Source: Bacteroides caecigallinarum
GTDB lineage: Bacteria > Bacteroidota > Bacteroidia > Bacteroidales > Bacteroidaceae
NCBI RefSeq assembly: GCF_021530995.1
Contig: NZ_JADYTF010000023.1
Coordinates: 1 to 35,627 of the forward strand
DNA length: 35,627 nt
Direction of reading: 5' to 3'
Made by a program: the position numbers and the translations under genes. The notes under the pieces were generated by a model. It searched no databases. It was not told the DNA's origin and saw only the letters and a program-made list of their open reading frames with translations. Numbering within the stretch: position 1 is the first letter of the stretch; each line of letters starts with the position of its first letter. Positions 16 to 372 of this stretch are shown one piece after another.

Positions 16-23
16 TACCTTTG
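16..23 (+). promoter_or_regulatory. Bacteroides-type -7 promoter box TACCTTTG
   Basis: TACCTTTG fits the Bacteroides -7 consensus TAnnTTTG exactly. The matching -33 element would lie before the window starts, so it cannot be checked. Transcription would begin near base 30 and run through the repeats towards the terminator ending at 372. Confidence 0.5.
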
Positions 24-70
24 TATCGTGGTTGTGAAACCAGAGAGTAAATTAATAAATAGCACAAAAA

Positions 71-250
71 TAAAAGGTATTAGACTTACTTAAGGTATAA
101 AAATAAAAAGGTAAAAGGTATTAGATTAAGGTTATTAGTTAAAGGTAAAATTAAGGTATTAGGTTTAAGGTAAAAAAAGGTATTAGTAAAATTAGGTAAA
201 AGGTTTTCAGTTTAAGGGATAAAAGGTAAATAGGTTTAGTGCTAAGGTAA
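71..250 (+). repeat. degenerate GGTWWWA heptad-like repeats
   Basis: GG occurs at about 76, 94, 110, 117, 130, 144, 155, 162, 169, 179, 195, 202, 216, 225, 233 and 246. Many copies read AAGGTAAAA or AAGGTATTAG. Several spacings are 7 or close to 14, but the period is not strict. All copies point the same way, so the plus strand is purine-rich. Confidence 0.7.
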
Positions 251-301
251 AAAGAAAAGATTAAGAAGGATAACAATTAAGACTAGAAAAACCAAAGAAA
301 C

Positions 302-372
302 AAAGAACCCTAAAATGGGGGGTTCTTTTAGGAAGCCGGCGGCATTCAAAATGATGAATGGCGCTTTTTTTT
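302..372 (+). terminator. double hairpin with T8 tract, intrinsic terminator
   Basis: The first hairpin pairs AAAGAACCC (302-310) with GGGTTCTTT (320-328), nine perfect pairs. The second pairs 339-347 with 356-364, eight pairs broken by one G-G mismatch, and is followed directly by eight T at 365-372. The T tract places it on the plus strand, ending the candidate RNA. The remaining gap to mdh (373-525) is AT-rich and I see nothing further in it. Confidence 0.75.

Follow-up and report, generated by a model that had tools for sequence, protein, structure and literature searches.

Several regulatory RNAs described in Bacteroides and elsewhere resemble parts of the locus analyzed here, which carries an array of short repeated units. 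The seed of FopS (RF04319), GTATTAG-TTTAAGG, is similar to the array units, its promoter offset is the same and its 5′ part is unfolded; GibS (RF04182) has the R1 seed in common with FopS, according to the accessible part of the report that also equates the sRNA motif overrepresented among RbpB CLIP peaks with the FopS family motif (PMC11697453). FopS and GibS each carry a single array-type seed and target mRNA start sites, whereas the array holds many units, extra motifs and a 5′ hairpin and shows no start-codon bias. In logic, the nearest known case is that of CrfA and the Sis sRNAs of Caulobacter. CrfA is a separate RNA that sequesters the sibling sRNAs SisA–D, as we propose for the array, and it does so in a carbon-starvation circuit with a TonB-dependent receptor among its components; it differs in belonging to another phylum and in having been found through Hfq, and the available text on it mentions no repeat array (PMC12559287). 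SroC, the chb trap of ChiX, 3′ETS-leuZ and QrrX are also RNA sponges of sRNAs; they are fragments of mRNA or of a tRNA precursor, or else an sRNA, and the source passages at hand mention no degenerate many-site array (PMC8383071, PMC12559287). CsrB resembles the array in layout, a short motif being repeated many times in a single RNA to titrate a regulator, but in the excerpt available it titrates a protein via GGA motifs at ~18 sites (PMC8383071).

Sponges of sRNAs are thus known as a kind, and the array's membership among them is argued here from sequence alone. According to a first-pass annotation of this DNA, Bacteroides lacks Hfq. In the open-licence literature searched, “sponge RNA” and sRNA stand alongside Bacteroides in only two papers, and each of them names Bacteroides a single time. 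The analysis centers on a further RNA, BTnc060 (RF04184), whose 5′ region is the reverse complement of the array motifs and which is found in the same genomes. It differs from the array in being a candidate partner rather than a relative, with opposite sense, one site, a length of ~93 nt and mostly a Cur-like box. We propose that the array locus is a stand-alone RNA gene of ~345 nt that probably acts as a multi-site sponge (decoy) for a small trans-acting RNA, the local ortholog of BTnc060. BTnc060, an Rfam-listed Bacteroides sRNA, would gain a partner and a testable role, and a sponge with a gene of its own and at least five degenerate sites would mean a further level in the control of glycan uptake by FopS and RbpB, which concerns major gut bacteria.

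Architecture of the RNA locus

The window, that is, the whole stretch of DNA analyzed, is the complete contig C154 of 35,627 nt, and the feature begins 15 bases from the contig end. The following elements were assigned:

16–23, + strand: −7 promoter box TACCTTTG, read in the sequence and aligned in 28 relatives
28–372, + strand: array RNA of ~345 nt, both ends predicted
29–42, + strand: 5′ hairpin TGGTTGTGAAACCA, from the fold and pair conservation
75–274, + strand: C-poor array whose sites complement the 5′ region of BTnc060, from perfect 8-nt complements
302–328, + strand: first 3′ hairpin AAAGAACCC...GGGTTCTTT, from the fold and kept in 41 sequences
338–372, + strand: second 3′ hairpin plus T8, an intrinsic terminator, from the fold and pair changes
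526–533, + strand: TAACTTTG, likely a separate −7 box of the downstream gene, judged from sequence
598–1599, + strand: malate dehydrogenase-like neighbor, not part of the RNA (best model NF004863, below cut-off)

The start of the RNA at G28 is predicted from the equal TTTGNANN–G offset in the FopS and BTnc060 genes. The first base of the window is contig base 1, so that the −33 element and the operator fall outside it; both were read from the sequences of relatives. Within the array, GGTATTAG starts at 76, 117, 155 and 179 (four copies) and GGTAAAA at 110, 144, 169, 195 and 246 (five copies). The array consists of G, A and T, with C at 10 of the 258 bases of 43–300.

The first-pass annotation had described a consensus promoter box, a one-sided repeat body of ~180 bases without an open frame and a double hairpin ending in T8. 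The box is present at 16–23, and the hairpins lie at 302–328 and 338–365, the latter running into the T8 at 365–372. The repeats are there as described, over a longer stretch of ~200 nt; they are not many copies of one short purine motif, as had been thought, but repeated units of four conserved motif classes. No ORF of at least 45 aa overlaps 1–380 (the longest has 43 aa and is antisense, and sense frames have 21–30 aa), and the array was rejected as a coding gene. Nor was a coding frame seen reaching in from upstream: in the 35 of 48 elements (defined below) with the nrdG C-terminal motif upstream, that motif lies 121–437 nt before the RNA.

In the centroid fold of 28–372, the 29–42 hairpin is followed by an unpaired array and by the hairpins at 302–328 and 338–365. 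The repeat body had been taken to be unfolded; the centroid does leave it open, but the mean unpaired probability over 75–274 is 0.58, a moderate openness, and the array RNA does not fold more weakly than its own shuffles (z −0.51). With a simple terminator scan, the first 3′ hairpin was recovered only in part. Of 49 sequences, 48 retain the five pairs of the 5′ hairpin, five of them with GC-to-AT double changes. The 3′ hairpins were aligned in 41 of the 48 elements defined below (L097 included; the three of g3 and L242, L312, L314 and L320 omitted). Four pairs of the second hairpin are kept with both sides changed, the same pairs being broken or gapped in 2–11 of the 41 sequences, and no two-sided pair change was seen in the first hairpin of these sequences. 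Pair conservation in the 5′ and last hairpins thus offers modest evidence for structure.

Identification of BTnc060 as the candidate partner

The likeness of the units to the FopS seed was noticed first, and the array-unit pattern was then run on 201 family genomes. Its matches in other genera, and in one genome of the same genus, fell on a small gene in antisense orientation. This gene consists of a promoter, GTTATCCTGAAAACAATCTTTTTACCTTAA...CTAATACCTATTG and a terminator hairpin, and cmscan names it BTnc060 (RF04184). With the BTnc060 model, three genus loci gave E values of 1.6e-24 to 2.9e-17 (7.8e-20 for the copy of the window's own genome), all below the gathering score (120.5 versus 228.9), with a core near identical to the model consensus; the form found here is short, ~93 nt. 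The own copy is exact (G000:C95:2913-2938, minus strand). The core occurs in 59 of 60 genus genomes and in all 37 good ones, and the reversed-pattern control gave 0. The names BTnc060 and RF04184 are absent from the main texts (as distinct from the supplements) of the open-licence full texts searched. At one locus, L274 (G025), the first 28 nt of a BTnc060-like gene are repeated in tandem.

The array mirrors the 5′ region of BTnc060

In the window, 138 of the 270 nt at 27–296 lie in perfect 8-nt complements of BTnc060. Shuffled arrays averaged 16.2 nt and reached at most 54 nt, and shuffled BTnc060 reached at most 92 nt (0 of 1000 at 138 nt in either case); reversed BTnc060 gave 8 nt. The individual sites are:

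75–83, + strand: AGGTATTAG, pairs with BTnc060 nt 41–49
89–97, + strand: CTTAAGGTA, pairs with BTnc060 nt 23–31
116–124 and 178–187, + strand: sites of the AGGTATTAG class, from the complement search
126–158, + strand: four adjoining sites TTAAGGT, TATTAGTT, AAGGTAAAA and TTAAGGTA, from the complement search
165–176, + strand: TTAAGGTAAAAA, pairs with BTnc060 nt 19–30
194–201, + strand: AGGTAAAA, from the complement search
203–210, + strand: GTTTTCAG, pairs with BTnc060 nt 7–14
223–230, + strand: AAGGTAAA, pairs with BTnc060 nt 21–28
243–262, + strand: TAAGGTAAAAAGA and AAAGATT, pair with BTnc060 nt 15–29
267–274, + strand: AGGATAAC, pairs with BTnc060 nt 1–8, its 5′ end

The same analysis was applied to 48 elements, which are the distinct sequences retrieved with two regular expressions, one for the 5′ motif and one for the first 3′ hairpin; 45 are from the genus and three from g3, and they are not independent, as some genomes contribute several (e.g., L087, L236). 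Outside this set stand L098/L240 (terminator unmatched), L108 (5′ motif variant), L002 (5′ end cut) and L323 (divergent). All 48 elements exceeded 300 of 300 of their own shuffles in complementarity to BTnc060, with a median coverage of 39.5%, while the opposite strand gave 0–17 nt and the reversed partner 0–24 nt. Each of 54 BTnc060 positions has a perfect 7-nt complement in 28–48 of the 48 elements, the A run in the middle being the least telling part of this coverage. The four motif classes conserved in the array together complement the BTnc060 5′ region: GGATAAC and GTTTTCAG are complements of its 5′ end, AAGGTAAAAAG complements its middle and GGTATTAG complements its CTAATACC. In the alignment of relatives, the AGGATAAC block is among the best conserved of the array.

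These comparisons use shuffled sequence as the null; an unsupervised search through 400 kb of one relative, G011, on both strands adds a real-genome null. BTnc060 was the best 54-nt partner of the G011 element, which itself lies outside the 400-kb sample, with a coverage of 106 nt versus 59 nt for the next-best partner. Stretches of 250 nt with at least 60 nt of BTnc060 complement occurred in this sample only at the BTnc060 gene itself. Moreover, the best array:BTnc060 duplex has a predicted energy of −35.1 kcal/mol, matched by 0 of 300 shuffles. At −14 kcal/mol or better, the array has five non-overlapping sites, versus at most three in 60 shuffles; at −12 kcal/mol there are six, versus at most five in shuffles, and at −10 kcal/mol there are again six, a number equaled by at least one of the 60 shuffles.

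Because the BTnc060 core is almost invariant in the genus, covariation with the array could not be seen. In g3, the array end motif CGTTTTTCAGGTAAC has drifted and the BTnc060 core is standard; a compensatory change there was considered and rejected, the variant matches in G064 and G149 being the arrays themselves, antisense. In G067 (g6), one BTnc060 change is matched by five of the six GATTGT units of its array, with coverages of 190 and 208 nt for the two BTnc060 versions, and coverage is not higher with the changed version. Overall, the predicted potential of the array to pair with BTnc060 is well supported, one-stranded and, as far as tested, partner-specific.

Conservation and distribution of the array family

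A BLAST search with 16–372 found matches in 45 of 60 genus genomes and in 34 of the 37 good ones, several of them short. As sequence, the element was seen in 36 of the 37 good genomes, that of G050 (L323) being divergent, and the promoter–array–terminator plan, for which the first-pass annotation had proposed a search of Bacteroidales genomes, was recovered in the genus and also in three g3 genomes. G024 is the one good genus genome in which no array was found, and its BTnc060 has two changes. The 28 aligned elements have a common plan of promoter, GTGGTTGTGAAACCA hairpin, array of variable length, GTTTTCAGG, AGGTAAAAAG, GGATAACA and then the 3′ hairpins, first a AAGAACCC hairpin and then a second one with a T run. 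Several genomes hold a second copy of the array gene, including the window's own genome (L002, G000:C390), where 77 of 260 nt are covered by BTnc060 complements. The L002 copy is cut by the contig end and adjoins a frame of at least 464 aa; L091 and L236 are more copies of this second type.

Of 201 family genomes, 19 contain the promoter plus 5′ hairpin motif with at most two mismatches, among them all 13 that belong to the genus. The six others comprise three with true elements (g3) and three in which the matched sequence is unrelated (g6, g15); the rejected matches are L230, L231 and L248 (g6, g15) and, in addition, L250 (G025:C7). An additional 30 loci, covering 13 of the 26 genomes queried, comprised 13 with the element and 17 without. 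At gathering score, no Rfam family matches the window or L109, L099, L093 or L233, and at E ≤ 10 there is no match at the array in L001, L002, L004 or L007. Matches to mir-8186, DLEU2_3 and DapZ in L004 and L007 were discarded, lying off the array and far below cut-offs.

The array-unit pattern also found array-like stretches in single genomes of g2, g14, g22 and g6. Those of g2, g14 and g22 exceed 300 of 300 shuffles in BTnc060 complementarity and have an FNR-type box, TTGANNNNNNTCAA, 84–91 nt upstream. These loci, L261 (g2), L260 (g14) and L262 (g22), are without the conserved 5′ hairpin and may be either wider relatives of the family or mRNA leaders, the g22 stretch being the most ambiguous. 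The g6 stretch was represented by a poorly chosen 300-nt piece, which tied with the best of 300 shuffles. This locus, L277 (G067:C1:484104-484343), is a near-perfect tandem repeat with a 47-bp unit, GGTATTAGATTAAGGTAAGT..., of which five copies are in the pattern matches, and it sits behind a promoter and an FNR-type box.

Control regions and gene neighborhood

The nrdG C-terminal motif lies upstream of the RNA on the same strand, at a distance of 121–437 nt, in 35 of the 48 elements; in the window's own copy the sequence before the RNA is too short for nrdG to appear. In L004, nrdD and nrdG are followed by the array and then by mdh. The array was rejected as a regulator of mdh, since an array-like stretch is present in only L004, L005 and L007 among 80 mdh loci, in the part read of each; some of these loci, e.g., L006, extend only a short way upstream.

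In all 27 elements of a first set, the start of a palindrome, TGAYNNNNRTCA, is exactly 85 nt upstream of the hairpin, and 22 of them fit TGATNNNNATCA; in a larger set it stands at −85 in 45 of the 47 elements with enough upstream sequence. By comparison with the FNR consensus, this palindrome looks like a Crp/Fnr-family site. Conservation, this operator at a fixed place and some compensatory change in the last hairpin lend good support to the proposal that the array RNA is encoded by an independent gene with a promoter and a terminator of its own. In BTnc060 genes, a Cur-like box is found in 29 of 35 (at −59 in 28 and at −57 in one), and the pattern used finds none in the other six. This box resembles the Crp/Cur consensus wwwTATGTTnTAnAACATAwww given in the part of the published source available (PMC3878776). 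As the two RNAs have different Crp/Fnr-type boxes, both candidate sites, a split of carbon versus redox control is suggested.

Two further features were observed upstream of these genes. FopS genes of several genomes have a Cur-like TGTTATAAAACA box upstream. Repeats like GTTATCGYRCACGA stand ~110–165 nt before the RNA start in L092, L093, L094, L096, L099, L103, L105 and others, further upstream than the Crp/Fnr-like box and in some elements two or three in tandem; similar motifs also occur before the array of L277.

Start-codon tests with FopS as reference

FopS genes coexist with the array, with three exact seeds in the window's own genome (L174, L181, L188) and nine in G011. Since array unit 156–173 differs from the FopS seed at only 2 of 18 bases and the array shares the FopS promoter offset, the GGTATTAG(A)TTTAAGGT units could be read as copies of the FopS R1 seed, with which the RNA would block many mRNA start codons as a FopS-like multi-seed repressor. 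We consider this improbable. GTTTTCAG and GGATAAC are not in the FopS seed, and at E ≤ 10 the FopS model has no match in L001, L002, L004 or L007, the positive case being the FopS gene in L265, which scores 78.9 (cut-off 56).

In 42 presumed susC start regions, FopS had a mean z of −2.19, with 25 of 42 below −1.6, whereas the array had a mean z of −0.13, with 4 of 42 below −1.6; susC start regions are not supported as array targets. The 42 regions come from 48 loci, six of which had no clear start, and at least L131 (susD-like) and L214 are doubtful members. Among 249 ORFs, z fell below −2 for FopS in 42 start regions versus 8 internal coding stretches, and for the array in 10 versus 13, with no preference for starts. 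BTnc060 as an ordinary start-codon-binding sRNA was likewise rejected, at 13 start regions versus 13 internal stretches. For this test, a 400-kb sample of the 5.16 Mb was used, frames of at least 150 codons were taken to start at their first ATG, and BTnc060 was represented by the G041 sequence; z is less sensitive for the array, which exceeds FopS in length. In the window's own genome, CTAATACC precedes ATG 26 times versus 76 for the reversed pattern and is not enriched. The lack of start bias argues against a role of the array in repressing mRNAs through many seeds, and the BTnc060 counts suggest that it too would work on RNAs rather than on start sites.

FopS itself may be among these RNAs. 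Nine FopS:BTnc060 duplexes, formed by the own BTnc060 and FopS genes of several genomes (three of the nine from the own genome), have predicted energies of −19.5 to −27.0 kcal/mol, versus shuffle means of −12 to −16, with 0–28 of 300 shuffles as good. These values are no more than suggestive of FopS as a candidate BTnc060 partner.

Proposed mechanism and alternative explanations

Based on these comparisons, we propose as the most likely mechanism that BTnc060 is titrated by the array. Five to six separate sites of the array would anneal to the BTnc060 5′ half, so that a single array RNA could capture several copies of BTnc060, prevent them from acting and perhaps lead to their degradation. We infer that the two RNAs are transcribed together and pair in the cell, and the direction of control would follow from the numbers of sites, with the array (many sites) inhibiting BTnc060 (one site) and not the reverse. 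The Crp/Fnr-type logic would place BTnc060 behind the Cur-like, carbon-limitation box and the array behind the FNR-type box beside the anaerobic nrdDG genes. A three-tier extension of this scheme is tentative and, in our judgment, rather doubtful: FopS would repress SusC-type transporters, Cur-induced BTnc060 would imitate the susC start region and soak up FopS, and the FNR-type-induced array would soak up BTnc060 and free FopS. If true, this circuit would be a sponge of a sponge, with glycan uptake set by carbon and redox signals.

The first-pass annotation had also suggested a multi-site sponge, with small RRM-type proteins as possible ligands; the sponge is supported, and the sequence points to the small RNA BTnc060 as the partner rather than to an RRM protein. 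For the array to bind several copies of such a protein, for example RbpB, in the manner of CsrB, seems to us unlikely. The array units do resemble the FopS seed, the main motif of RbpB-bound B. theta sRNAs is that of the FopS family, and RbpB favors single-stranded stretches, according to the portion of the study available (PMC11697453), but RbpB binding leaves the mirroring of nearly the whole BTnc060 5′ region by four motif classes unexplained. It could act in addition to RNA pairing. With roles reversed, BTnc060 would be the regulator and the array RNA its target, either triggered to decay or storing BTnc060. The same pairing data would fit, and several genomes of other genera gave a BTnc060 match and no array match with the two patterns used. 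We nevertheless give this arrangement a small chance, since the array has no coding frame or other recognized output and its many sites favor titration of BTnc060 by the array. Finally, an untranscribed or functionless relic of repeated antisense BTnc060 copies is very hard to reconcile with genus-wide retention of the array together with its promoter, operator spacing and two hairpins, and with its place behind nrdG in 35 of 48 elements, and is extremely improbable.

Array-like leaders of other genes

Apart from the stand-alone arrays, similar units were observed in leaders of protein-coding genes. In the rpsG–fusA spacer of L259 (g21) and L280 (g19), where the gene names were assigned by eye, GGTATTAG and AGGTA units stand in the leader before a fusA-like start, and fusA might be a BTnc060-type target at these loci. 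The window's own genome has a promoter-like box, two GGTATTAG units and an ATG near a contig end (L349, G000:C381:121-147, minus strand), a possible BTnc060 target leader. In L254 and L256 (g3), an array-like leader of GGTAAAAAG, GTTTT, GGTATTAG and GGTATTATG runs into the start codon of a gene whose protein begins with a signal-like segment, and in L256 a Cur-like box lies before the promoter of this gene.
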